From positions 372,001-436,000 of the forward strand of contig CAJXMW010000001.1 of NCBI GenBank assembly GCA_913056235.1: 64,000 bases of DNA, given 5' to 3'. Below, piece after piece: positions 25,866-44,277 of the stretch. A program made the position numbers and the translations under genes. The number at the start of each line of letters is the position of its first letter. Position 1 is the first letter of the stretch. The notes beneath the pieces are model-generated. The model had not been told where the DNA came from and made no database searches. It worked only from the letters and a program-made list of their open reading frames with translations. This DNA comes from an uncultured Fodinibius sp. (lineage in GTDB: Bacteria; Bacteroidota; Rhodothermia; Balneolales; Balneolaceae).

Positions 25866-25939
25866 GCGCCCGTAGCTCAACTGGATAGAGCGTCTGACTT
25901 CGGATCAGAAGGTTGGGAGTTCGAATCTTCCCGGGCGTA
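25866..25939 (+). tRNA. tRNA-Arg (anticodon TCG)
   Basis: All four arms fold: acceptor stem GCGCCCG with CGGGCGT (first pair G.U), D arm GCTC/GAGC, anticodon stem TCTGA/TCAGA with loop CTTCGGA (anticodon TCG), T arm GGGAG-TTCGAAT-CTTCC with GTTCGA. No CCA is encoded. An integrase begins 181 bases downstream, so this gene is probably the attachment site. The 3' end is intact. Confidence 0.97.
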
Positions 25940-25956
25940 CTGCTTGAAACATTCCA

Positions 25957-26120: not shown

Positions 26121-27290
26121 ATGGCCAGTCTAAGAAAGCGCAATAACTACTACTCTATCGTTTTTGCCACGCGGGTTGATGGCAAACTCATTCAGAAAAC
26201 CTATGCTCTTGGTACCAAGTACAAAAAGATAGCCGAACAAAAGAAATACCAATACGAAAAATTACATGAAGCTGGTGAGATAAATCCATTTTCGGATGAC
26301 TGGAATCTGCAAGAGTACGAAAAGATGCAGGAGTTGAAAGGTACTTCCGTAGTAAGTCCCATCTTAAACGAGCTTCAAAAGAAATTTTTAAGAGAAAAGA
26401 CAAATGTTACTGCAAAAACCAAGAGAACTTACAAGTACATCATACGTCAATTTATGGAAGGAGTTGGCTATACAATGCCCGTTACAAGAATTGATGCTGA
26501 TGATATTCGCGCGTTTTGTCTTCGAGATGACTTAGCCAATGCATCAAAAAAGAATTACCTAAAACACTTGAAAGTATTCTTTAACTGGCTGGTAGCGGAA
26601 GAATACATAGAAACCAATCCCTGCGATAAAATTGCCTTGCCAAAGGTTCGAGATAATCTCGTAGATAAGATTATTGAAGAAGATGATCTTGACTTAATTT
26701 TCAAAAAATTCCGAGAGTATCAGTTAAAACACAAAAAGTCTGGCAACATACACTCCACCGATCAGATGCAGCTTTGGTTTAAACCCCTGATCACACTGGC
26801 TTTTTATACTGGAATGAGGCGTAAAGAAATCATCCAATTGCGGTGGGAGCATATCAACCTCAAAGAAGGATTTATTAGAGTTACTGATACTAAAAATGGT
26901 TCAGAACGAACAATACCAATTTTTGAAACTTTATATTGGCGTTTAGTTGCCTGGAAAAAACTTATGGGCAATCCTAAAAAAGGATTAATTTTCCCGAGTC
27001 CAAAATCAACGCCTAATCGAGAAATTGCAATGACGGGGGATAATGTCTCTAAACGTTTTAAATTTTACGCCACAGAGGAAGCTAAACTGAAAGACACTGT
27101 AAATTTTCATGGCCTCAGACATTCTTGCGCAACCTTCATGCTACGCATCGGCTTCAATGTAATTGAAGTTAAAAATATGCTTGGCCATAAAAGTCTTGAA
27201 GTAACCAATCGCTATGTTCACTTGGTTGCGAAAGATCTAATGCGTTCTGCTAACCGAAATGGTAAAATGAACTATCTGAATGAAGCATAA
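26121..27290 (+). CDS. int: Tyrosine-type integrase
   Basis: 389 aa. An N-terminal arm-binding region (RKRNNYYSIVFATRVDGK) and a SAM-like core-binding domain (about 85-180, RTYKYIIRQFM, NWLVAEEYIETNPCDKI) precede the catalytic domain. Catalytic residues are visible: Arg about 233 (TGMRRKEI), His-x-x-Arg about 330 (HGLRHS), GHKSLEVTNRY with the nucleophile Tyr about 364. It is oriented away from the adjacent tRNA-Arg gene, the usual layout at an attL end. It overlaps the next gene by 11 bases. It would catalyse integration and excision of the element. Confidence 0.95.
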   Translation: MASLRKRNNYYSIVFATRVDGKLIQKTYALGTKYKKIAEQKKYQYEKLHEAGEINPFSDDWNLQEYEKMQELKGTSVVSPILNELQKKFLREKTNVTAKTKRTYKYIIRQFMEGVGYTMPVTRIDADDIRAFCLRDDLANASKKNYLKHLKVFFNWLVAEEYIETNPCDKIALPKVRDNLVDKIIEEDDLDLIFKKFREYQLKHKKSGNIHSTDQMQLWFKPLITLAFYTGMRRKEIIQLRWEHINLKEGFIRVTDTKNGSERTIPIFETLYWRLVAWKKLMGNPKKGLIFPSPKSTPNREIAMTGDNVSKRFKFYATEEAKLKDTVNFHGLRHSCATFMLRIGFNVIEVKNMLGHKSLEVTNRYVHLVAKDLMRSANRNGKMNYLNEA

Positions 27291-33189: not shown

Positions 33190-34059
33190 ATGAGTTTACA
33201 TATAGGCGGTAGTTGGGATCCTTTAGAACGTATTAAGGAATTGGTAAACAACCTGAGAGCCCTTAGCTCCATTCCTGATGGCGGAACAACAAGTTTTTCT
33301 ACTATCGATTTTATTCGACCGGTTTCTATACTGCCCATTGCCAGCTATGCATTTGATCATAACATCACGATACAAAATGCCAATTCATACTTAGATAGTA
33401 TTGAATTTCCTGATGGAACGAATACTTCTGAATTCAACAAAATTGGGCAAACTTACTTCCCCATTACAAAAGCTGACCTAAAATCAGCCAGTAGAGACGG
33501 GCGGGAAGAAAAGCTGAGATTTTTATCTGACCAATACCCAAAACTTTTGCGGCGCAATATTGACGACCAAGAATTTCTTGACCGAGTTGGCAATAATGTA
33601 TTCTATCTTCTTATTTCCGAAATGGTTGATAATATTATGGAACATTCAGAAGCGGATTTAGCCTATATATTTTCCCAGTTTTGGCCAGCCAATAACTCCT
33701 GTGAAATCTGTCTTCTGGATAACGGGATAGGAATTTACCAATCCTTAAAAAATGCGGGCAGAAGTGTTACCGATGATATGGATGCCCTAGAAAAAGTAAT
33801 TCGTCAGCATTTATCTGCCAAAGACGAATTTGGCTCACAGAAAAGAGGTACCGGAATTAAAAACACCATTAATTTGCTATCTAATAATGAACTAAATGGC
33901 TATTTTTGCGTTATAAGTGGTAATGCCGGCTATTTTATTGACAATAATGGGCGGAATCACTTTATTAATTTGACACAGGTTAGTTGGAATGGCACCATTA
34001 TTTGTATGGGATTCCAAAAACCACCTAAACACGTCGACATATATGAGTATATTCGATAA
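33190..34059 (+). CDS. GHKL ATPase (histidine-kinase-like ATP-binding) protein
   Basis: 289 aa. Residues about 135-260 contain an N-box-like EMVDNIMEHSE near 150, a G1 box LLDNGIGIYQ near 178 and a G2-like GTGIKNTIN near 222, which together mark the HATPase_c fold of anti-sigma/histidine-kinase proteins. No phospho-acceptor His domain or receiver is present. It overlaps the next gene, a STAS-like protein, by 17 bases, the typical layout of an ATPase/STAS pair. The N-terminal 130 residues are a separate domain that I do not recognise. Confidence 0.8.
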   Translation: MSLHIGGSWDPLERIKELVNNLRALSSIPDGGTTSFSTIDFIRPVSILPIASYAFDHNITIQNANSYLDSIEFPDGTNTSEFNKIGQTYFPITKADLKSASRDGREEKLRFLSDQYPKLLRRNIDDQEFLDRVGNNVFYLLISEMVDNIMEHSEADLAYIFSQFWPANNSCEICLLDNGIGIYQSLKNAGRSVTDDMDALEKVIRQHLSAKDEFGSQKRGTGIKNTINLLSNNELNGYFCVISGNAGYFIDNNGRNHFINLTQVSWNGTIICMGFQKPPKHVDIYEYIR

Positions 34060-34375
34060 ACATATCAATCTCCAAAAAGAGTTTGATGTAAGTGCCTTAA
34101 ATAATAGGGCTACTGCTAAAAAATTGGTCAAGAGTATTCAAAGCTCATGGGTTAATACTGTTGTTTTAGACTTTTCCGATATAGAGTTCGCTTCTCGTTC
34201 TTTTTTAGATGAGCTGAATTCACATCTACCTCATATCGAAAAAGAAGTTAAAAAGACAAATATGAATGCTTCTGTGAGAGAAATGGATGAATTGGTGCAG
34301 CAGCCAAATCGTCAAGCTCATTCACCTTTAAATAACTCCGAAAGTTACTCTGAATCTGAGTTACTGACTTTTTAA
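34043..34375 (+). CDS. STAS-like (DUF4325-type) protein
   Basis: 110 aa from ATG 34043, inside the end of the ATPase gene. Core residues 20-60 (ATAKKLVKSIQSSW, TVVLDFSDIEFASRSFLDEL) give the beta-alpha pattern of STAS/DUF4325 domains, in which the Ser/Arg in the ASRSF loop lies where SpoIIAA is phosphorylated. The C-terminal 30 residues are Ser/Asn/Glu-rich and probably disordered. Together with the ATPase it forms a predicted two-gene switch. The target protein is unknown; no sigma factor lies within the pair. Confidence 0.7.
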   Translation: MSIFDKHINLQKEFDVSALNNRATAKKLVKSIQSSWVNTVVLDFSDIEFASRSFLDELNSHLPHIEKEVKKTNMNASVREMDELVQQPNRQAHSPLNNSESYSESELLTF

Positions 34376-34573: not shown

Positions 34574-34588
34574 GTAAGATTATCTTAC
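34574..34588. promoter_or_regulatory. 15-bp perfect palindrome, likely operator
   Basis: GTAAGAT-T-ATCTTAC, arms 7 bp around one central base, 25 bases before the ATG of the six-gene operon that contains an XRE regulator (34889). The spacing fits autorepression. The remaining 34376-34573 stretch is AT-rich with no other clear element. Confidence 0.65.
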
Positions 34589-34613: not shown

Positions 34614-34889
34614 ATGAATAAAGAAGAAGTAAAAAATGCACTAATTAAACAGATTCAAGCTAACCATCAATTAACTACTGGTGAAGAAATCGAGATTGAT
34701 GAAAATACTGTGCCCTTCGAAGAATTGGATTTTTTTGATAGTTTATTAGCATCTGAAGTAGGCATAGACCTCCAAGATAAACTAGATTGTGATTTTGAGA
34801 AGATAAAAGAAGCTTTCGAAAAAGCTGAAATAGAAGGTAAATCAATTGATGAGATGGCTAAAATAATTTTAAGTGTTGAGGAGGAATAA
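34614..34889 (+). CDS. Small acidic protein, first gene of nucleotide-modification operon
   Basis: 91 aa, strongly acidic (many Glu/Asp, ILSVEEE end). Residues 30-70 (FEELDFFDSLLASEVGIDLQDKL) could form helices. No family is recognised. The stop codon of this gene overlaps the start of the XRE gene (TAATG), so the two are translated together. It may be an antitoxin-like or Ocr/DNA-mimic-like protein; the acidity allows either, but this is speculation. Confidence 0.55.
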   Translation: MNKEEVKNALIKQIQANHQLTTGEEIEIDENTVPFEELDFFDSLLASEVGIDLQDKLDCDFEKIKEAFEKAEIEGKSIDEMAKIILSVEEE

Positions 34890-35218
34890 TGACAAATTTA
34901 AAACAATCTATAGCTAATCGATTAAAGGAAGCACGTGTAAATGCTGGCCTTTCCCAAAATCAGGTAGCTCAAATAATAGGACTAAATAGGCCATCAATTT
35001 CTGAAATTGAAGCAGGTAGAAGAAAGGTAAGCGCAGAAGAGTTAGTTAAATTTTCAGAAATATATAAAGTGAAATTGGATTGGCTTACTTGTAAAGAATC
35101 AGAATCAAACGACGATATCAAAGATAAGCTAGAATTTGCAGCTCGTGAATTATCTGATGTAAAGGGAGAAGATCTCGATAAGGTAATAAAAATTTTAACT
35201 GCTTTTAAAAGTTCGTAG
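34889..35218 (+). CDS. XRE-family transcription regulator
   Basis: 109 aa. Residues about 5-70 are a typical HTH_3 domain (RLKEARVNAGLSQNQVAQIIG and RPSISEIEAGRRKVSAEEL in succession). The rest is a short charged helical tail. It starts on the stop of the 34614 gene and ends 2 bases before the ImmA/IrrE gene, the usual regulator plus protease pairing in which the protease removes the regulator. A perfect palindrome before the operon is the likely binding site. Confidence 0.88.
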   Translation: MTNLKQSIANRLKEARVNAGLSQNQVAQIIGLNRPSISEIEAGRRKVSAEELVKFSEIYKVKLDWLTCKESESNDDIKDKLEFAARELSDVKGEDLDKVIKILTAFKSS

Positions 35219-35220
35219 AA

Positions 35221-36075
35221 GTGTCCAACTCTAAAAAAAAGCTAATAGAAAAAGCCTTAATAACCGCTTTAAGAGAAAGAAAAAAAATTAGCAACCACCC
35301 ATATAAGCCCTTCTGTTTGTACGACTTTATTGAAAAACAAGAGGTCGAAATTAAATTTGTAAATATTTCTAGTTTAGAAGGTATTTATAGCAAAGAGCCG
35401 GGGCCACTAATTCTATTAAGTTCGCTAAGACCACATGGGAGACAATATTATAATTGTGCGCATGAATATGGTCATCATGTATTTGAACATGGAATGGAAT
35501 TAGATGAGATTACAAATAATCATGATACTAGTAGCTACAATCCTAATGAATTTTTAGTAGATGCTTTTGCTGGTTTCTTGTTAATGCCGAAGTCAACTGT
35601 TAAAAGAGCTTTTAATATAAGGGACGTTGGGTTGAAGAAAGTTAAGCCTATAGATGTTTATCGGGTTGCATCAAATATTGGTGTAGGTTATAAGACACTG
35701 GCGTTCCATCTATACAGATCATTACGGATGATTGATAGATCAGTTTATCGGAAATTATCGAAAGTAAAGGTAAGTAGCATCAAAGAAGAGATATTGGGCC
35801 AACGGTTTCCTGGAGAATTAATTTTCGTGGATAAGCAATGGGAGGGTAGGCCGATTGATCTTCAAGTTAATGATTTGATTGCTGTTAGTGATGATTATGA
35901 GATTGAAGAAAGTTATCTAAAAAAAATAGACCAGATAGATAATAATTTGATTTTAAAAGGTCATAAAACTGGAATTGGTAGAATTAAACTTAATTCATCT
36001 AAAGAAGCTCACTTCGTAAGAGTCTCTCGGGATAAATACAATGGCTTTAATAAGTATAAGCACTTAGAGGAGTAG
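35221..36075 (+). CDS. ImmA/IrrE family metallopeptidase
   Basis: 284 aa, GTG start. Zn-protease motif HEYGHH at about residue 81, then a downstream conserved FLVDAFAGFLLMPKS, in which the acidic residue near 116 is the expected third ligand. This is the ImmA/IrrE arrangement. The last ~110 residues form an extra C-terminal domain. In ICEBs1, ImmA cleaves its partner repressor; the gene just before this one is such a repressor, so it probably acts as the induction switch of this cargo operon. Confidence 0.85.
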   Translation: MSNSKKKLIEKALITALRERKKISNHPYKPFCLYDFIEKQEVEIKFVNISSLEGIYSKEPGPLILLSSLRPHGRQYYNCAHEYGHHVFEHGMELDEITNNHDTSSYNPNEFLVDAFAGFLLMPKSTVKRAFNIRDVGLKKVKPIDVYRVASNIGVGYKTLAFHLYRSLRMIDRSVYRKLSKVKVSSIKEEILGQRFPGELIFVDKQWEGRPIDLQVNDLIAVSDDYEIEESYLKKIDQIDNNLILKGHKTGIGRIKLNSSKEAHFVRVSRDKYNGFNKYKHLEE

Positions 36076-36080
36076 TTACT

Positions 36081-36848
36081 ATGTCAGAATTAACTGTAGT
36101 TGAAAGTTCTAAAAGCATTTCAGATGCATGGGCACAATCCTTTAAAAAGATTTATGATGATGGAGATATATCACCGTTAGTTATATCCGTTACAGGTTTC
36201 TCTGGAGATATGAAAACTCCAGAAGATACGGATATACGAATTGCTCTTGACATATCACTCAAAGAACTTAATGAAAGCAGTGTCCAAACAGTTGCCAATA
36301 CTATATTCCCATGGTCGCTATGGAACAAAGATAAGCCTAGAGAGGAATTATATGAACGTCATGACAAAATATTGCCATCCATCAGAAGTTGTGACGCTAA
36401 TAAAAGAGGGCACTATTTTAGAAGAATGATCTCATTTGATAAACCGGTAGGTGGTATTAATCAACTTGAAAAAGTATTTGATGTTTGGGATAGCTCACAT
36501 CGTCATTCTGGTTTACAAGTCGCTTTTTTTGATCCTAATAGAGATCATATTCGAAGTCCATACTTAGGATTTCCTTGCTTACATCAAATATCTTTTGACT
36601 GCTATGGTGCAAATGGTGCCGATGGGATGGGCATCACAGCTTTTTATGGAACTCAACATAACCACCGGAAGGCGTATGGTAATTTACTAGGTTTGTCAAG
36701 GCTTGGAATGTTTATGGCCCATGAGATGGATTTAGAATTCGTGCGATTAAACTGTGTTTCTGGGCTTGCAAAATTCAGTGGTAGTTTTAGGAAAACAAAT
36801 GAGTACGTTGAAGAATTGGTTGAACTAATTGAAAGTAAAATAGACTAA
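36081..36848 (+). CDS. Thymidylate-synthase-like protein
   Basis: 255 aa. The region about 160-215 reads FPCLHQISFDCY (Cys about 165), then TAFYGTQ, RKAYGNLLGLSRLGMFMAHEM, following the order PC(H)-Q-F-y, QRS-x-D, PFNI-x-S-Y-A-L-L in the thymidylate synthase/dCMP hydroxymethylase superfamily. The Cys-Pro pair is kept, but the usual QRSxD phosphate-binding motif is altered to GTQHN. It may methylate or hydroxymethylate a non-standard pyrimidine nucleotide. The link to nucleotide modification is strengthened by the next two genes. Superfamily membership is my reading and needs structural confirmation. Confidence 0.55.
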   Translation: MSELTVVESSKSISDAWAQSFKKIYDDGDISPLVISVTGFSGDMKTPEDTDIRIALDISLKELNESSVQTVANTIFPWSLWNKDKPREELYERHDKILPSIRSCDANKRGHYFRRMISFDKPVGGINQLEKVFDVWDSSHRHSGLQVAFFDPNRDHIRSPYLGFPCLHQISFDCYGANGADGMGITAFYGTQHNHRKAYGNLLGLSRLGMFMAHEMDLEFVRLNCVSGLAKFSGSFRKTNEYVEELVELIESKID

Positions 36849-36893
36849 AAATCTTCTTAGAATTACCAGTAATCCGAAAAGGATTCATATATT

Positions 36894-37481
36894 ATGGATA
36901 ATAAATTTATCGTTTTTGAAGGTCCCGATAACATTGGAAAAACAACATTGTGCAACAAAGTTTCAGAAATATTAACCCAAAAAAATAAAACCTGCGAAGT
37001 ACACTCCTTTCCTGGTAACCAAAAAGGGACATTAGGAAAATTTGTACATAACTTTCATCACAACCATCAAAAATATGGGGTTACCAATATTCCAAATATA
37101 AGCTTACAGCTTTTTCATGTTGCTGCACATTTTGATACCATTGAAAAGAATATTAAACCCGCTATTGCAAATAATGAGTACCTCTTGTTAGATCGTTATT
37201 GGTGGTCAACCTACGTGTATGGAAAGGTTAACAATATTAAGCAATCTCTATTAGATAAACTTCTCGAGATAGAAAAACTAGCCTGGAAAGAACTTTTGCC
37301 AGATACTATAGTATTATTGACTAATGACTCACCTTTTGAAGGAGCAGCAAGTGAGGAATGGCTCCAACTTCGAAAAGAATATCTAAAAATAGCTGAAAAT
37401 AGTACAACCCCAGAGGTGATCCAGTTTAGTAATGTTGGTGATATTGAAGACAATGCACAAAAACTAATTAAGCTATTTTAA
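36894..37481 (+). CDS. Thymidylate-kinase-like nucleotide kinase
   Basis: 195 aa. P-loop FEGPDNIGKTTL at residues 8-19, DRYWWSTYVYGK near 100 (the DRY-type nucleotide-binding motif), and a lid-like region thereafter. This is the dTMP kinase fold (about 200 aa). It is smaller and more divergent than the cellular Tmk. In phage-like base-modification operons such kinases phosphorylate modified dNMPs; here it follows the TS-like gene, so a two-step route to an unusual dNTP is plausible. Confidence 0.75.
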   Translation: MDNKFIVFEGPDNIGKTTLCNKVSEILTQKNKTCEVHSFPGNQKGTLGKFVHNFHHNHQKYGVTNIPNISLQLFHVAAHFDTIEKNIKPAIANNEYLLLDRYWWSTYVYGKVNNIKQSLLDKLLEIEKLAWKELLPDTIVLLTNDSPFEGAASEEWLQLRKEYLKIAENSTTPEVIQFSNVGDIEDNAQKLIKLF

Positions 37482-37495
37482 ATCCAAAATTATTC

Positions 37496-38563
37496 ATGTC
37501 AGATCTTCGACAAAATATTTTAGAGTTAAAAACAGATGATCATGCAACTAACAAAGGATTTTATTCGGAATTATTATCAGAACTAGCACCTGCTAAACCT
37601 ACCGAAGTTTATAATACATATTGGTATTTTGCGGCAGAACGGCAGAATGTTTTTTTCAACAAAATAAAGAAAAAACACCCGCCTTGGTCTAAAGATAGGA
37701 TACTCAGAAAATATAAGTTTACAAATGCATATCGAGCAGCCGACCGAGTAAGCCAGTACTTAATTCAAAATGTTATTTATGATGATGATCATGATTTAGA
37801 GGATTTATTTTTCAGAATTATTCTATTCAAAATTTTTAATAAGATTGAAACATGGGAATTACTAAAATCCAAATTAGGTGAAATAAATTACAAAACATTT
37901 GATTTCTCGACTTATAATGAAGTTTTAACTGAGGCACAAGATTCTGGTAAAGCTATCTATTCAGGTGCTTATATAATGGCATCTGGCAAGAGTGCATTTG
38001 GATATTCAAAAAAACATAGGAATCACCTTGCTTTAGTTTCTAAAATGATGGAAGAGAACCTACCATTAAAAATTGCTACTGCTGAATCAATGCAGGAGGC
38101 TTTCACATTGATTAAATCTTATCCATCGATCGGTGATTTTTTAGCATATCAATATGTAACAGATATTAACTATAGTAAAATTACTGATTTTTCAGAGACT
38201 GAATTCGTTGTACCAGGACCTGGAGCAATCGATGGCATTCATAAATGTTTCTCTGATTTAGGTGGGCTAAGTGAAACAGAGATCATTAAAATGATGTATG
38301 AAAGGCAAAGTCTTGAATTTGAAAGATTGGGCATAAAGTTTAAAACCTTATGGGGTAGGCCCCTTAAGCTGATAGATTGTCAAAATCTATTTTGTGAAGT
38401 GGATAAATATTCACGAGTAGCTCACCCAAATATAAAAGGGAAGAGTGATAGGAAAAGAATCAAACAAAAATACTCACCTACAAATAGATCTTTACACTAT
38501 TGGTTCCCACCGAAATGGGGAATAAATGATAGAGTGCAAAAATTTTATGAGGAGTTGAGTTAA
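37496..38563 (+). CDS. HMU-DNA-kinase-helical / aGPT-pyrophosphorylase-like protein
   Basis: 355 aa. Residues 40-95 carry the block YWYFAAERQNVFF, PPWSKDRIL and KFTNAYRAADRVSQYL, which I recognise from the glycosylase-fold helical proteins called 5-hmdU DNA kinase helical domain, or alpha-glutamyl/putrescinyl thymine pyrophosphorylase. Later segments are TDINYSKITDFSE and PGPGAIDGIHKCF. The family is predicted to act on hypermodified thymine or uracil bases in DNA. It closes the rightward operon; its stop is 14 bases from the end of a facing NTP-pyrophosphohydrolase gene. Confidence 0.72.
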   Translation: MSDLRQNILELKTDDHATNKGFYSELLSELAPAKPTEVYNTYWYFAAERQNVFFNKIKKKHPPWSKDRILRKYKFTNAYRAADRVSQYLIQNVIYDDDHDLEDLFFRIILFKIFNKIETWELLKSKLGEINYKTFDFSTYNEVLTEAQDSGKAIYSGAYIMASGKSAFGYSKKHRNHLALVSKMMEENLPLKIATAESMQEAFTLIKSYPSIGDFLAYQYVTDINYSKITDFSETEFVVPGPGAIDGIHKCFSDLGGLSETEIIKMMYERQSLEFERLGIKFKTLWGRPLKLIDCQNLFCEVDKYSRVAHPNIKGKSDRKRIKQKYSPTNRSLHYWFPPKWGINDRVQKFYEELS

Positions 38564-38577
38564 TATGTAATAGCTTC

Positions 38578-39465
38578 TCAGTCTTTATCAATTATTTCAA
38601 TTTTGCGTTTAGTTAAGTCAACTGACATTTTGCCTCCTTTGTTTTTGCGTAAGTGTCTATACACTTCGTACGAATTTAGAATAGCATTTTCCCACTCTTT
38701 AAGTGACCTTTCACTGACTTCAAAGGGATCAACTAAAACCTCTATAGTTTTCAAAATTTCATAGTCAAGTGTTTCAACCCCTTGAAAGAAATTATTTTGT
38801 TCGGCAAATGGATAAATATAGGCAGATATTGCTTCCTCAATTATAGCCGCTCGAGCTCCGTCTTCAACTTCATCGATACTTGGAACACTTTTTCTTTTAA
38901 CGTTTAAAAGTTTTCTAAGGACTGGTGACCATCCTAAGTATGCCGCAAACCCATAGTGAAAAATATCGTGAAATCTATAACCATCATCTTCATAAGAGTT
39001 GTCTGTTATTGGATCCCCAACCTGGTCGCCATCTATGAATACAGTGACTAATGTATCATCACCTTTCGTGGTCTCTTCAAACTCCAACTCAAAATTTCTT
39101 GGCAGTTGCTCGCCTTCAGGGAAATCATCATCAAATAAATGATATTGAGCGTTGTCTATTGACTTCCACCGGTTTTGTGTTTTCTCAAGATTTTTTTGGG
39201 CAATCTTCTCCAAATCAAGATTTGCTTTGGTGGCAACATTAGATAAATACCACAAAACATCACCGAGTTCTTCTTCTAAATGGGGTTTAAACTCAACATA
39301 AGCATCTCCATCTCGCAATCTTTTCTTAAATTCAGAAATGGTTGACCCAATCTCTCCCACTAATCCTAAAATTGGGACCAAATAATTGATCAATTTATTT
39401 TCGTCTTCTCCTTTTGGGTTTTGATCGGTCTCTTTTGACTTTATTTGGTACTCTCGTAGATCCAT
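38578..39465 (-). CDS. MazG-type (all-alpha) nucleoside triphosphate pyrophosphohydrolase
   Basis: 295 aa. Residues 25-105 are an all-alpha NTP-PPase domain: LGLVGEIGSTISEF, the EEELGDVLWYLSNVA metal-binding helix (about 63-78), and LEKIAQKNLEKTQNRW. Residues about 150-220 hold a second helical block (HDIFHYGFAAYLGWSP, VEDGARAAIIEEAIS) that recurs in this long subfamily. Such enzymes remove unwanted (d)NTPs by cutting to NMP plus PPi. It is encoded opposite the end of the TS/TMPK/HMUDK-like operon and probably belongs to the same functional unit. Confidence 0.75.
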   Translation of the reverse strand: MDLREYQIKSKETDQNPKGEDENKLINYLVPILGLVGEIGSTISEFKKRLRDGDAYVEFKPHLEEELGDVLWYLSNVATKANLDLEKIAQKNLEKTQNRWKSIDNAQYHLFDDDFPEGEQLPRNFELEFEETTKGDDTLVTVFIDGDQVGDPITDNSYEDDGYRFHDIFHYGFAAYLGWSPVLRKLLNVKRKSVPSIDEVEDGARAAIIEEAISAYIYPFAEQNNFFQGVETLDYEILKTIEVLVDPFEVSERSLKEWENAILNSYEVYRHLRKNKGGKMSVDLTKRKIEIIDKD

Positions 39466-39560: not shown

Positions 39561-40163
39561 ATGCTACCTATAGTATACCAAACCTATGGTCAAGTTCGTG
39601 ATAAAATTATTGTTGTAATATCACGGCTGGGACATTTCGAGCCTCATGAACAAGTAGCGGTTCATTCCCTCATTGCCGACATGATGAAAGCGAGAGGCCA
39701 AGAAGAGCTCATTGAAGAATATGGATTAGCTCCCTTCCCCTAGAAAGTACTAACTATAGAACGGACCTTTTGCGAAAAAATAATGTCCCTGGTTCGCTTC
39801 TCTCATGCCGAAGATCCCTATGAGGATCACGGAAATAAGGTCCGGCATACCTACGACATTCACATGCTGCTAAAGCAACCGTCAATTCAAGACTTTGTTG
39901 AAAGCGATAAGCTGGATGAAATGCTGCTTCAAGTCGGAGCCGATGATATTGAAAGCTATGGCGACAAATACGATTGGCTGTACGATCATCCTGCCTCGGC
40001 CCTGCTTTTTGACAAACCCGAAGAAACCTGGGATAAGATCAAGCCTGTTTATAGCGGTACTTTTAAAGAGTTGGTAATTGGCGATCTTCCGGAAGCTGAT
40101 GCTGTACTCAGTGATATTAAGAGGGTCGCCGAGCGTCTTAAAGCTATCGATTGGGAGATTTAA
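39561..40163 (+). pseudogene. Remnant of an AbiEii-type nucleotidyltransferase toxin gene
   Basis: Two frames, 39561-39743 (60 aa) and 39783-40163 (126 aa), are in the same phase and separated by a single in-frame TAG at 39741. Read through the stop, they give EYGLAPFP-stop-KVLTIERTFCEKIMSLVRF, continuing to NKVRHTYDIHMLL and DLPEADAVLSDIKRV. This matches the C-terminal half of AbiEii/AbiGii toxins (RTF-x-EKI, RH-x-YDIH). The N-terminal nucleotidyltransferase half is missing and no AbiEi antitoxin is seen. It appears to be a dead gene; suppression of the amber codon is the only other reading. Confidence 0.72.
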
Positions 40164-40275: not shown

Positions 40276-41061
40276 TCAGTCATAATCTTCGCAAATCCAC
40301 AATAACGTAATCACAGAAGAATAACTATCTAAATAAATTGACTCTTCATTCAGCAATAACCCATCCTCTTCTAGTTTAGGGAACCAATCTATTGCATCAC
40401 AAACCTCTTTCTTTCTCTTTTCTCCATTGTCAAAAAATACTTTTGGCGTTGAATTAATTGGCAGAGCATCTTCCTCTAAATACCCCAGATAGAAATCATC
40501 TGTACTGGCAACCCATTGAATTTGACCCTCTTCAGAAAAAACTACATAACAAGGAATATCCCCATATTTCGTATATTGAATGCAGGCAGATGTAATACTA
40601 GAACCCAGTTCTTCAGAAAGGTTTTCCAAAAGGCTGACACTCAATTCTTTGCTACTTGTTATATCTCGAACTAAATACTTTGGCATCAATAACTCTGCTG
40701 CAAAGTTGTTCGCCTCGTATTCCCGGTAATCTGTTTGGCTTGATTTTTTATTCCATTTGTTGAAATCATACTCTTGACAAACGAAGTTCATCAGTTGTTT
40801 ATGTAACAGATGATGACCGAATTCGTGTGCTAATACGAACTTTTTCTTAGGTAGATAATCAATACAATCATCTATGGTAATCATAGATTTATCAGACGCT
40901 CTCGAAAATAGAATTCTTCCTTGCGCCCCATCTATCTGTTCATATTTGACAAAAGCATTTCTAACTGCACAAAGGTCTTCTATTTCTCCTAGATCTATGC
41001 TTCCATCGATAAAAAATTCTTTTCTTATTTGATTAGCGACTCTTGCAGCCCTATTCCTCAT
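40276..41061 (-). CDS. ImmA/IrrE family metallopeptidase, part of sigma-like operon
   Basis: 261 aa. Zn-binding HEFGHH near residue 79 and the EANNFAAELLMP stretch near 120 with the third ligand, as in ImmA/IrrE. The protein has a C-terminal half of unknown fold (QIQWVAST, FFDNGEKRKK). The start overlaps the end of the 41051 gene by 11 bases, and the whole set (41451, 41051, 40276) reads leftward from the control region shared with the ubiquitin-like cassette. Cleavage of a regulator such as the sigma-like protein is the natural hypothesis. Confidence 0.82.
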   Translation of the reverse strand: MRNRAARVANQIRKEFFIDGSIDLGEIEDLCAVRNAFVKYEQIDGAQGRILFSRASDKSMITIDDCIDYLPKKKFVLAHEFGHHLLHKQLMNFVCQEYDFNKWNKKSSQTDYREYEANNFAAELLMPKYLVRDITSSKELSVSLLENLSEELGSSITSACIQYTKYGDIPCYVVFSEEGQIQWVASTDDFYLGYLEEDALPINSTPKVFFDNGEKRKKEVCDAIDWFPKLEEDGLLLNEESIYLDSYSSVITLLWICEDYD

Positions 41062-41437
41062 CTTCTTTTTCTAGCTTTTCAATAAGTTGTAAAAGCTGTT
41101 CATCATTGAACATTTTTAATGCATCTTCATCGCTTATATCATCTAATTTGGAGAATTGAAAGGCAAACTTAGACTCAGGTGACTCCATATTTGAAAGAAT
41201 AGATTTTAGAGAAATGTCCTGGCTTTGTGATTTAAGCAGTTCTTGTGCTCTTTTTAGGAGACTTTTCTTTTCTCGTGCTTTTTTAAGTTTATTCTCAGCT
41301 AAAGCTTTTTTAAATGTATTTACTCCCTCCTCCTCAAGCTTATCCAAATCATAGCCTTTACTTTTCAAGTATTCATCTCTAGCCGTTTTATCTTCAAACT
41401 CACCTAACCACGATAGTATTTTGGCTAATTTCTTCAT
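41051..41437 (-). CDS. Charged helical protein coupled to the ImmA-like gene
   Basis: 128 aa, very Lys/Glu-rich with nearly continuous helix potential (KKALAENKLKKAREKKSLLKR) and no membrane segment. I do not recognise a family. It lies between the sigma-like and ImmA-like genes (overlap 11 bases with the latter), so it could be an inhibitor of the sigma-like protein or a cleavage target of the peptidase. Neither is shown by the sequence. Confidence 0.55.
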   Translation of the reverse strand: MKKLAKILSWLGEFEDKTARDEYLKSKGYDLDKLEEEGVNTFKKALAENKLKKAREKKSLLKRAQELLKSQSQDISLKSILSNMESPESKFAFQFSKLDDISDEDALKMFNDEQLLQLIEKLEKEDEE

Positions 41438-41450
41438 ATTAGTTCTACCA

Positions 41451-42023
41451 TCAATTTTTCAGATTATCGAGAAATTTTTCACAAGCTCTTCGAAGCCTTT
41501 TTTTAGCATTATATACCTTTTGTCGTGAGTCATAGTTTAATTTATCCGCTATTTCATCTGCTGAATAACCTTCTTCTTCGAAAAAAAGCAATTCTGCAAG
41601 TTCTTCATCAATTTCTACTAGGTGATCAAACAATTGGTCCCTTAAATCTTCTCCATGTACCTCTTCAAGTACACTCACCTCACTTTCCAACAAATCGAAA
41701 AAACTATCAGCAGATTGATCATTACTTGCATGATGAGTGGTTGACGTACTTTTTAAATTAAAGTGATTGCTGATTTCACTGGAAATACAACCTTTTAGAA
41801 AATTCTTGAAACTCGGGTTTGTATCAGGATCCCAAGATCTATGATCATCACTATTCTCATCTAATACCTTTCTTATTGCCCTGCCAACAAAATCTTTGGC
41901 ACTCATTCCTTGTGTGGTAATAAAATTAAGTCTGTAGTCAGCAAAACTGATTAAATCTTTATACAGATCATCAAGTTCGTCATCCGTCAAATCATCAATG
42001 TATTCAAAAGCTCTTGAACTCAT
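41451..42023 (-). CDS. Sigma-70-like DNA-binding protein
   Basis: 190 aa. A region-2-like helix set (LYKDLISFADYRLNFI, FVGRAIRKVL, SFKNFLKGCISSEISNHF) is followed by an acidic linker and a region-4-type HTH (EEEGYSADEIADKLNYDSR, VYNAKKRLRRACEKF). This matches the layout of ECF sigma factors or sigma-like HTH proteins. It is the first gene of the leftward operon starting beside the concentric inverted repeat at 42045-42107, so it may direct the promoters of both divergent operons. Confidence 0.72.
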   Translation of the reverse strand: MSSRAFEYIDDLTDDELDDLYKDLISFADYRLNFITTQGMSAKDFVGRAIRKVLDENSDDHRSWDPDTNPSFKNFLKGCISSEISNHFNLKSTSTTHHASNDQSADSFFDLLESEVSVLEEVHGEDLRDQLFDHLVEIDEELAELLFFEEEGYSADEIADKLNYDSRQKVYNAKKRLRRACEKFLDNLKN

Positions 42024-42044
42024 AAATCATAACCCTCTATAGAC

Positions 42045-42107
42045 TATAGCTGTTTTCTCATATTAATTTTCCACGGGATGGAAAATCCGGTCAACTTTTC
42101 AGCTATA
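42045..42107. promoter_or_regulatory. Concentric inverted repeats between divergent operons
   Basis: Inner dyad ATTTTCCA-CGGGA-TGGAAAAT at 42066-42086 and outer dyad TATAGCTG (42045-42052) with CAGCTATA (42100-42107). Both are centred on base 42076. They lie between the leftward sigma-like operon (starts 42023) and the rightward DUF2188/Ubl operon (starts 42149). It probably controls both. Confidence 0.7.
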
Positions 42108-42148
42108 TATAATAGAAGGCTAACAAAAACCAAAATATCACTACAGCT

Positions 42149-42394
42149 ATGAGTAACAATGATAGATCAGTTTATCGAAGAAGCGATGGTAAATGGGCAA
42201 ACAAAAAAGATTCTGCTTCAAAAGCATCCTCCGTACATGATACGCAAAAAGATGCTGCTAAAGCGGCGAAGAAGAATTTAAATAACCAAGGTGGTGGTGA
42301 GCTCAAAATAATGGGAAGAGACGGTAAAATTCGAAGTAAGGATACCATCTCTCCCGGTAACGACCCATTTCCGCCACGTGACAAGGAACATTAA
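42149..42394 (+). CDS. DUF2188-like small protein
   Basis: 81 aa. SVYRRSDGKWANKKDSASKAS near the start and the following TQKDAAKAAKKNLNNQGGGELKIMGRDGKI block give the DUF2188 pattern (strand, Lys-rich helix, strand). The protein is basic, with no signal peptide. It is the first rightward gene from the shared control region and precedes the ubiquitin-like gene by 36 bases. DUF2188 proteins have no assigned function; association with conjugation cassettes is suggested only by position. Confidence 0.7.
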   Translation: MSNNDRSVYRRSDGKWANKKDSASKASSVHDTQKDAAKAAKKNLNNQGGGELKIMGRDGKIRSKDTISPGNDPFPPRDKEH

Positions 42395-42430
42395 CAAACA
42401 GTCAAATTTCAAACCAATAATCTCAATATT

Positions 42431-42715
42431 ATGAGTAATTCAGATAAAGGAAAAGGTAAGGAAGATGCCCCAGGTCAGAATAAAGAGTTTACAATATATG
42501 TAAACGCAACCCCAGAAACCTGGACCGGAAAAGAAATATCATTTAGTGAAGTCACTAAGTTAGCTTTCGAAAATCCTCCATACGGAGAATACACAGAGTA
42601 CCAAGTAGTATACTCAGAAGCCCGGGGAAATAAAGAAGGGACTTTAGCTGAAGGACAAACCATAAAGATAAAAGAAGGTACAGAGTTTGATGTCAGCGCA
42701 ACTGATAGATCATAA
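42431..42715 (+). CDS. Bacterial ubiquitin-like protein (multiubiquitin-domain type, single domain)
   Basis: 94 aa. A disordered charged start (residues 1-17) is followed by one beta-grasp domain: KEFTIYVNATPETWTGKEIS, the helix FSEVTKLAFENP, YTEYQVVYSEARGN, LAEGQTIKIKEGTEFDVSATDRS. This is the consensus of the multiubiquitin domain (PF14452), which usually occurs in several copies; here only one is present. The C-terminus ends TDRS, with no Gly-Gly. It overlaps the E1-like gene by 29 bases, so coupling is tight. It is the expected conjugated modifier of this cassette. Confidence 0.82.
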   Translation: MSNSDKGKGKEDAPGQNKEFTIYVNATPETWTGKEISFSEVTKLAFENPPYGEYTEYQVVYSEARGNKEGTLAEGQTIKIKEGTEFDVSATDRS

Positions 42716-43874
42716 TGAAGATCTCAAAAAGTTAGTAGAGAGTGGGTTAGTTCTAGAAATCAAAAATAACTTCCTCCTGATTCACAGGATACCATATTTA
42801 AACTCTATTAGTGAAATTAAATATGGGACATTGGTTTCCAAGCTACAACTGTCAGGTAACAAAACGAGAAAGAACCCTGAACACACTGTTTATTGGTCCG
42901 GCGAAATGCCATGCAGGTTAGATGGTACCAAATTTAATTCGATCCTAAACAATAGTAATACTCAACAAATTGCTGATAGCTTTGAGGTAAACTTTAGATT
43001 TTCCAGCAAGCCCAAACCCAATGGGTACTCGGATTATCATCATAAGATGACTACCTATATCAAGATGATTACAGCGCCAGCCAAAGCAAAAGATAAATCA
43101 GTGACTGAAAAAGGAAAGGCGCAAATAACCCAAAGCAAAGATGAATATGTATTTAACTATTTAAATACTAATTCTAGCAAGCCTGAATTGAGTACTTTAG
43201 AAGATGAGCTCAAAGAACAAAAAATTGCAATCATTGGTCTGGGGGGCACTGGGTCATATATTTTAGATTTGGTTGCCAAGGTGCCAGTGAAAGAAATTCA
43301 TATCTATGATGGAGACTGGTTTTACAATAATAATGCATTCCGAGCTCCGGGCGCACCCTCAATAGATGACCTCACTGTACCCAAGAAAAAAGTAGTATAT
43401 CTTCAGAACATATACTCCAAGATGCATAAAGGGATTAAGGCTCATCCTTTATATCTAAAATCAGAAAACGTTACGACGTTAGATAAGTTTGATTTTGTCT
43501 TCCTATCTCTAGACTCAGCTGACATTAAAAAGGATATAATCAAGTTTTTAGAAAAAGAAGGTATCCCATTTATTGATGTCGGGATTGGGGTAAATAACAA
43601 TCAGGGTGCACTTACTGGTTTAGTAAGGACAACAACAGGAACACCTTCAAAAACAGATCATATCTGGGATAAAAATTATATTCCTTTTACCAAAGATCCG
43701 GATAATGATTATGATTCTAACATTCAAATAGCTGAGCTAAATTCACTCAATGCGACCCTTGCTGTTATAAAATGGAAAAAGCTGTTTGGTTTTTACCATG
43801 ACCGAAATAATGAGCATACTAGTTTTTATCGGATTAATTCAAACAAAATGTTGAATGAAGAAACTGAATCATAG
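42687..43874 (+). CDS. E1-like ThiF adenylyltransferase with fused N-terminal domain
   Basis: 395 aa (394 from the second Met). Residues about 180-345 are a ThiF/E1-type Rossmann domain with IIGLGGTGSYILDLVAK, YDGDWFYNNNAFRAPGAP and FDFVFLSLDSADIK, enough for ATP binding and adenylation of a ubiquitin-like C-terminus. The first ~165 residues are a separate domain (HTVYWSGEMPCRLDG, FSSKPKPNGYSDYHHKM) of the kind described as DUF6791. The single Cys of the whole protein is Cys76 in this N-terminal domain. A role as fused E2-like conjugation site is inferred. It overlaps both neighbours. Confidence 0.85.
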   Translation: MMSAQLIDHNEDLKKLVESGLVLEIKNNFLLIHRIPYLNSISEIKYGTLVSKLQLSGNKTRKNPEHTVYWSGEMPCRLDGTKFNSILNNSNTQQIADSFEVNFRFSSKPKPNGYSDYHHKMTTYIKMITAPAKAKDKSVTEKGKAQITQSKDEYVFNYLNTNSSKPELSTLEDELKEQKIAIIGLGGTGSYILDLVAKVPVKEIHIYDGDWFYNNNAFRAPGAPSIDDLTVPKKKVVYLQNIYSKMHKGIKAHPLYLKSENVTTLDKFDFVFLSLDSADIKKDIIKFLEKEGIPFIDVGIGVNNNQGALTGLVRTTTGTPSKTDHIWDKNYIPFTKDPDNDYDSNIQIAELNSLNATLAVIKWKKLFGFYHDRNNEHTSFYRINSNKMLNEETES

Positions 43875-44277
43875 ATTTGTAGAATACATACCAAAAGATC
43901 TTGAAGAAGGCGTTCTTTATATCTCGATAAGATTTGGCACAGCAGTTCATAAATGTGCTTGTGGTTGTGGCAATAAAACTGTTACTCCACTTTCACCAAC
44001 AGATTGGGAATTAAAATATAATGGAGAATCTGTATCCCTAAGCCCATCAATTGGCAATTGGAGCTTTCCATGCCAATCTCATTACTGGATTATTAATGAT
44101 GAGATCAGATGGGCAGATAAATGGACTAAAGAAAAAATTCAGGCAAATAGAGTAAGACAGCAGATAAATAAAAAACGCTACTTCAACTCTTTAAAAACAA
44201 ATTCTAAAGAGCCAGAATCTAAGGAGCAAAGCTTATGGAATAAGTTTAAACATTGGATTTCAAACCTCATGAAATAA
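43855..44277 (+). CDS. DUF6527-type zinc-binding protein of the ubiquitin-like cassette
   Basis: 140 aa, starting 20 bases before the end of the E1-like gene. Residues about 30-80 show HKCACGCGNKT, TPLSPTDWEL, SLSPSIGNW, and FPCQSHYWI. The Cys at 34, 36, 38 and 73 with His 76 form a likely metal site and are characteristic of DUF6527. The C-terminus is Lys-rich and ends in a short amphipathic helix. In ubiquitin-like cassettes of bacteria a DUF6527 gene follows the E1-like gene; its reaction is unproven (protease or structural Zn protein are both possible). Confidence 0.78.
   Translation: MKKLNHRFVEYIPKDLEEGVLYISIRFGTAVHKCACGCGNKTVTPLSPTDWELKYNGESVSLSPSIGNWSFPCQSHYWIINDEIRWADKWTKEKIQANRVRQQINKKRYFNSLKTNSKEPESKEQSLWNKFKHWISNLMK

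Follow-up and report, generated by a model that had tools for sequence, protein, structure and literature searches.

The operon described here occupies positions 34614-39465 of a 64,000-nt stretch of DNA (the window) from an uncultured Fodinibius sp. (contig CAJXMW010000001.1, positions 372,001 to 436,000), where a first-pass annotation had predicted an operon that makes or acts on modified thymine or uracil nucleotides. All seven genes are intact and their coordinates agree with the open reading frames (ORFs) of that annotation, which had described a tight forward block and a facing MazG gene. Intergenic gaps in the forward block are -1, 2, 5, 45 and 14 nt, and a further 14 nt separate it from the convergent MazG gene. 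The features are listed below, with thymidylate synthase abbreviated as TS, acyl carrier protein as ACP and helix-turn-helix as HTH.

34574-34588, no strand: operator candidate GTAAGATTATCTTAC, overlapping a promoter-like -10 and lying 25 nt before the ACP start
34614-34889, + strand: ACP-like carrier protein, 91 amino acids, net charge -17, Ser43 in DSL
34889-35218, + strand: XRE repressor, CapH-like (HTH_3, 7e-16)
35221-36075, + strand: ImmA/IrrE (M78) protease, CapP-like (Peptidase_M78, 9e-10), HEYGH at residue 81, GTG start
36081-36848, + strand: TS-fold enzyme (TS1) with invariant Cys166 and Asn201 and mainly Thr/Asn at the TS phosphate-Arg position
36894-37481, + strand: TMK-family P-loop kinase (Thymidylate_kin, 2.5e-14), additional to the host's own TMK
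37496-38563, + strand: HMUDK_hel protein (PF18723, 3.2e-114), glycosylase-like predicted fold, Asp223 invariant
38578-39465, - strand: NTP pyrophosphohydrolase with MazG (5e-8) and MazG_C (4.5e-76), convergent

The regulatory genes resemble a known inducible pair, as had been proposed from the first pass. The XRE and M78 proteins match CapH and CapP models at 3e-13 and 2e-13, respectively, the operon combines an HTH repressor with an adjacent M78 protease bearing HExxH (HEYGH) in the manner of CapH/CapP, and the HTH region is conserved among 66 aligned sequences. Upstream lies a palindrome that the first-pass annotation overlooked. Allowing up to one mismatch, the sequence GTAAGANNNTCTTAC is present close to the start of the ACP gene in 64 of the 72 ACP loci (48 exactly), these loci being kin and hence not independent events, while shuffled upstream stretches gave a mean of 0.075 matches and a maximum of 2 in 72. 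A wider upstream window raised the number of loci with the operator to 66. Elsewhere in 1.27 Mb only two further sites were found, both in ACP loci (L023 and L074) for which the predicted ORF start probably lies too far upstream. Columns to the left of the palindrome are not conserved, and a further GTAA half-site follows to its right. The site at 34574-34588 is the only one in the window at up to one mismatch and the only exact one in the 3.97 Mb genome. Conservation of this element near the ACP start thus suggests that a single repressor-operator pair has been maintained across phyla, and the retention of an exact operator sequence upstream of one gene across bacterial phyla is unusual in itself. 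Promoter-like sites numbered 20 compared to a shuffle mean of 22.3, and hence were not above shuffles; a terminator scan found no terminator-like site.

The co-occurrence of these genes was surveyed in 84,980 species' genomes, which yielded 442 relatives; the best 80 of these were kept and 78 loci counted, L019 and L030 being copies of L015 and L016, while the near-duplicate loci L027/L028, L051/L052 and L008/L054 remained in the counts. The 80 loci are those most similar to a query alignment (A3) whose members come mostly (6 of 7) from ACP-type operons, and the co-occurrence figures therefore apply to near relatives only. Within this set TS1 was present in 70 loci, XRE in 68, ImmA in 67, ACP in 63, MazG in 52, TMK in 36, a dCTP-deaminase-like gene (DCD) in 30, a phosphopantetheinyl transferase gene in 29 and a second TS-fold gene (TS2) in 19. 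ACP, XRE, ImmA and TS genes were contiguous on one strand in 60 of the 78 loci, spanning at least eight phyla, and the forward block kept its order in Cyanobacteriota, Pseudomonadota, Planctomycetota, Chloroflexota, Acidobacteriota, Bacteroidota and others. Because the same order recurs across phyla, the arrangement is not due to chance. ACP, XRE, ImmA, TS and HMUDK_hel form the constant part, while MazG and the dTMP-kinase gene, which the first-pass annotation had counted among the components, are variable; neither the ACP nor the phosphopantetheinyl transferase had been foreseen as a member. The Fodinibius salsisoli copy (L015/L019) carries DCD and TS2 in addition. Within the window's own phylum the distribution is patchy, with the TS-like gene in 5 and HMUDK_hel in 6 of 394 genomes. 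The HMUDK tree is fairly clustered by phylum (14 changes for 9 groups, the least possible being 8), so wide recent transfer between phyla is unsupported and spread by phylum-hopping alone was rejected. A phage origin was also considered, and a scan of viral sequences with the TS protein alone gave no relative. The HMUDK alignment, used in the same way, retrieved 8 contigs listed as viral, including one with the full ACP block (L099) and one with XRE-ImmA-TS on the other strand, in which no ACP was found (L100). An HMUDK_hel homologue is present in 492 of 50,697 phage records, with 25-36% identity among the 25 matches listed.

The acidic 91-residue protein encoded at 34614-34889, whose nature had been overlooked in the first pass, is ACP-like and a putative carrier. 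An alignment of 40 homologues (A6; the window protein and 39 of 60 listed ACP ORFs) has a mean column identity of 30% and only two invariant residues, Pro34 and Ser43, the latter being a phosphopantetheine-type serine in a DSL-like motif in all 40. Compared against the PDB, the family profile matched 118 sequences at E values up to 1 (best 3.2e-6), and the 60 matches listed are acyl carrier proteins or carrier subunits. The window protein alone scored 13.2 bits against PF00550, below the cut-off of 20.8. ACP genes were found in 63 of the 70 loci with TS1 and in none of the 8 loci without it, and 28 of the 29 loci with a phosphopantetheinyl transferase gene also encode ACP. A version on a haloarchaeal plasmid comprises a TS-like gene, a C1 protease, ImmA, XRE, an ACP-like gene (weak ACP match at 0.0011, serine in a DS motif), phosphopantetheinyl transferase, HMUDK_hel and TMK. 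In this version a papain-type C1 protease neighbours a fusion of ImmA with a chagasin-type inhibitor (I42; L127, 2216-3822), an arrangement that suggests a protease cascade. C1 peptidases also underlie TS matches on three alphaproteobacterial plasmids.

The gene at 36081 was confirmed as TS-like by structure prediction and fold search, as the first-pass annotation had anticipated. No Pfam family matched TS1, and its match to TIGR03283 (2.4e-6) fell under that model's cut-off. Its AlphaFold2 model (mean pLDDT 92.9) matched MilA and the phage dCMP hydroxylase AfhB, each at Z 17.7, and ThyA (3ix6) at Z 15.7, with a root-mean-square deviation (rmsd) of 3.4 over 198 aligned residues; MilA was also its nearest relative among solved structures (8e-4). 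The catalytic Cys166 and the uracil-type Asn201 are invariant in all 37 aligned sequences (A5; the window protein and 36 of 49 listed TS ORFs). The canonical phosphate Arg, which precedes the Asn, corresponds to the invariant R180 of TS2, a position that we take to be R166 of E. coli ThyA. The TS1/TS2 alignment places TS1 position 191 at this site, where Thr (20 of 37) and Asn (8 of 37) predominate and Arg is absent from the five commonest residues. According to the text of the MilA paper, Asn at the site of TS1 Asn201 goes with uracil and Asp with cytosine. Taken together, the sequence and model identify TS1 as a TS-superfamily enzyme with an altered sugar-phosphate site, rather than a ThyA. 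Housekeeping thymidylate supply was rejected because the host genome retains a ThyA of its own (2.9e-106) along with another TMK (2.5e-43); it yielded no ThyX. A calcineurin-like phosphoesterase fused to a weak TS-like domain was observed in L053 (8547-10730), beside the ACP block, the transferase and TIR-Nmad2.

TS2, of which no copy was found in the window operon, is nearest to MilA by profile (1e-43, compared to 2e-21 for ThyA). It carries Arg133 and Ser181 in 18 of 18 sequences and a nearly invariant Asn191, a trio that is linked to deoxyribo and uracil substrates in the text of the MilA paper; TS2 is thus a predicted dUMP hydroxymethylase. It always accompanies TMK, occurring in 19 of the 36 TMK loci and in none of the 42 loci lacking TMK, and it is rarely found with MazG (4 of 78 loci).

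The protein encoded at 37496, originally described as HMUDK- or aGPT-PPlase-like, matched PF18723 over its full length at 381.5 bits (curated cut-off 25), and the model supports that description to a moderate degree. With a pLDDT of 88.9, it was closest to queuosine nucleosidase (Z 10.3), followed by the phage PaMx11 5-PmdU glycinyltransferase (8z2m; Z 10.0, rmsd 4.2, 227 aligned) and helix-hairpin-helix glycosylases (Z 8-9), which moderately supports a glycosylase-like or PUGT-like fold. Its profile retrieved nothing relevant among PDB sequences. A Pfam scan matched no P-loop family in this protein, the operon's kinase being the adjacent TMK gene, which matches the PADLOC families PDC-M51B (1e-11) and VakA (3.5e-6). 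TMK is fused to the N-terminus of HMUDK_hel in 30 of the 78 loci, and MazG is fused to HMUDK_hel in two planctomycete loci (L071 and L081).

The operon is situated in a low-GC island in which an integrase gene lies next to a tRNA gene:

25866-25940, + strand: tRNA-Arg, at the left edge of the low-GC island
26121-27290, + strand: tyrosine integrase of the island (PF00589, 9.7e-31), beside the tRNA-Arg

Using the tRNA, no att repeat was found at the putative right end of the island. Just upstream of the operon (33190-34375) a weak GHKL ATPase match (E 0.03) is followed by a DUF4325 STAS-like protein (4.6e-4), a pair reminiscent of CapK/CapS regulators. Downstream, a short ORF at 39783-40163 has a weak AbiEii match (E 0.024) and is possibly a remnant. 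Beyond it lies a Bub-type ubiquitin-like operon (40276-44277) with Multi_ubiq (42431-42715), a DUF6791-ThiF E1 (42687-43874) and DUF6527 (43855-44277), as well as a strong CapP match (40276-41061; 1.3e-53).

A defence role, which the first-pass annotation had suggested, gains moderate support from neighbouring genes, from mobility and from a 2026 study discussed below. Of 199 candidate flanking ORFs, 150 were taken and 145 of these scanned, five from L052, L064 and L054 being left out. The nearest flanking ORFs (n=145) matched 206 PADLOC families, ThsB-type TIR foremost, compared to 27 families, none in more than 2 members, for a rough control of 114 ORFs drawn from 18 regions in genomes related to that of the window. 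TIR genes neighbour 13 of the 78 loci, Nmad2 12, DUF1643 6 and radical SAM 6; among the Pfam-scanned window ORFs there was no Nmad2. Many copies are on plasmids and many others are chromosomal. A TIR-Nmad2 pair accompanies HMUDK_hel and TS2 without the ACP block in L044, L062, L076 and L126, and in the first three it directly adjoins a TMK-HMUDK_hel-TS2 unit; this combination is likely a separate defence unit. A Parabacteroides plasmid carries TIR-Nmad2-HMUDK_hel-radical SAM (L013, 4868-7958).

From the observed genes, residues, fold, gene order, operator and neighbours, we propose, with a probability of roughly 45%, that this is a self-regulated operon that would produce a C5-modified uracil nucleotide upon induction for use against phages; repression, induction, substrate, product, antiphage effect and ACP cargo are all predicted parts of this proposal. 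XRE would bind GTAAGANNNTCTTAC over the promoter and keep the operon off; upon infection or DNA damage the ImmA/IrrE protease would become active and destroy XRE, as CapP does CapH. The TS-fold enzyme would then carry out Cys-dependent one-carbon chemistry on a uracil base, with fuller loci supplying DCD and a second TS-fold gene bearing dUMP-hydroxymethylase-type residues. The TMK-like kinase and HMUDK_hel may phosphorylate and then substitute or cleave the TS product, and ACP, primed by a phosphopantetheinyl transferase of the operon or host, may carry a group or the pyrimidine on its thiol. The product would enter the nucleotide pool or DNA during infection and poison or mark phage replication, MazG would remove modified or excess nucleotides in the host, and in other loci the TIR-Nmad2 pair could act as reader or effector. 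The part of this proposal that concerns base or nucleotide modification, already suggested in the first pass, is well supported as a prediction by the TS fold and PF18723. If correct, it would mean that a thymine-hypermodification pathway was either taken over by cells or passed from them to phages, that cells placed it under damage-triggered control as immunity, and that a carrier protein serves in defence, a role without a counterpart found in any known defence system. The exact operator makes the induction step directly testable, and the constant block would offer a clean genetic target toward a new modified nucleotide.

Several observations weigh against this proposal. Because TS1 has lost the phosphate Arg, its substrate may be something other than a mononucleotide. 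Since MazG, TMK, DCD and TS2 are variable, no single linear pathway suits every locus. As a single protein, only 4 of the 40 ACPs match PF00550 at E<0.01, and no enzyme for loading ACP was seen. The fold evidence for HMUDK_hel is moderate because Foldseek alone is weak (best E 0.35); the structural matches reach a Z of about 10, and the model on which the glycosylase-like fold rests is helical. The control for the flanking genes differs in phylum make-up, being drawn from relatives of the window genome. Finally, the text of PMC13092281, the 2026 study, gives neither gene order nor which of its Fig. 3C domains share one unit.

We also considered whether the product is a nucleotide second messenger instead of a DNA precursor. 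In that case a modified uridine derivative would activate an effector, for example a neighbouring TIR. The ThsB-like TIR and Nmad2 genes directly beside TMK-HMUDK_hel-TS2 units without an ACP block would fit this idea, and a TS1 lacking the phosphate Arg suits an unusual nucleotide. However, a TIR accompanies a small minority of the loci and none was identified among the scanned window ORFs, while the block itself has no polymerase or cyclase, and we consider a messenger unlikely.

Less probable again is a scheme in which the pyrimidine reacts with the ACP thiol. The TS-fold enzyme or a PUGT-like HMUDK_hel would attach a uracil nucleotide through its C5-methylene to the phosphopantetheine arm, the nucleotide would be built while bound to this carrier, and infection would set it free to act as an antiviral nucleotide or a signal. 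It would account for the loss of the phosphate Arg from TS1, the co-travel of TS1 with ACP, the frequent phosphopantetheinyl transferase gene, the unseen acyl-loading gene, and the retention of the transferase and an ACP-like gene in the haloarchaeal version. If true, it would represent carrier-protein-tethered nucleotide chemistry in immunity.

We give equally little credence to self-marking, whereby host DNA would be hypermodified at some thymines after damage or infection and so protected against phage nucleases, leaving an unmarked genome open to attack. The gene set does resemble phage thymine-hypermodification clusters, such as that of phage LuckyBarnes (L128), with a TS, two glycosyltransferases and an HMUDK homologue, and type I restriction-modification genes adjoin the F. 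salsisoli copy. Nevertheless, tight conditional repression would be odd for constant self-marking, and the constant block has no nuclease.

A small-molecule pathway akin to those for nucleoside antibiotics, directed at other cells or the host with MazG as self-protection, appears more doubtful still. TS2 and TS1 are nearest, among solved structures, to MilA of mildiomycin biosynthesis, and natural-product pathways commonly employ ACP and phosphopantetheinyl transferase, but no adenylation, ketosynthase or peptide-ligase family was among the 25 most frequent Pfam families of the 145 flanking ORFs, and both the CapH/CapP-like control and the defence neighbours speak for something else. The least credible alternative is a maintenance or transfer module of a mobile element, in which XRE/ImmA is a switch of the type found in integrative and conjugative elements, where ImmR-like regulators have this role (PMC10233336), and the enzymes serve plasmid or island DNA: the many plasmid copies and the integrase in the window would suit it, but the genome has a single exact copy of the operator, at the operon, and many copies of the module are chromosomal, without obvious transfer genes in the stretch seen.

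The proposed antiphage operon can be compared to several known systems. Thymine hypermodification in phages such as M6, ViI and W-14 involves 5-HMUDK and aGPT-PPlase/PUGT proteins. With these pathways the operon shares the TS-family hydroxymethylase type, a kinase and an HMUDK_hel/PUGT-like protein; it differs in its cellular island, its XRE/ImmA regulators and its ACP, and among the matches listed its phage homologues show the low identity given above. MilA, a CMP 5-hydroxymethylase, is the nearest solved relative of TS2 and TS1; both have Asn at the site where the cytosine-type residue is Asp, and TS1 lacks the phosphate Arg as well. The window TMK resembles the PDC-M51B/VakA kinases, but no viperin is among the window operon genes; radical SAM is a neighbour in some other loci. 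CapP is activated by single-stranded DNA and cleaves CapH, as described in the text of PMC13373217. Like the CapH/CapP pairs of CBASS and Bub operons, the HTH repressor and the M78 protease of the window are encoded together with the operon that they would control, yet here the pair sits inside the operon behind ACP, with one operator sequence kept across phyla. The strong CapP match of the window belongs to the other gene, at 40276-41061, and not to the operon's ImmA.

The closest parallel is found in the defence units of DefensePredictor (PMC13092281, Science 2026), which validated 42 units in E. coli. The new defence domains named in its text include a 5-hydroxymethyluracil kinase and a thymidylate synthase, and its Fig. 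3C legend names TS, dNMPk, 5hmdUk and NMAD. The window operon has a TS-family enzyme, a dNMP kinase and a 5-hmdU-kinase-type domain, and Nmad2 occurs in related loci. The claim that the system is undescribed therefore holds only in part, because both domains are listed in validated units. What stands is that no ACP-bearing version of such a unit was found in print, although parts of the operon may have been predicted before; 'acyl carrier' and 'carrier protein' have 0 occurrences in the main text of PMC13092281. In its enzymatic core the operon groups with phage thymine hypermodification and the 2026 defence units, while the ACP, phosphopantetheinyl transferase and XRE/ImmA block and its operator, which are not seen in that article's text, appear new relative to known systems.

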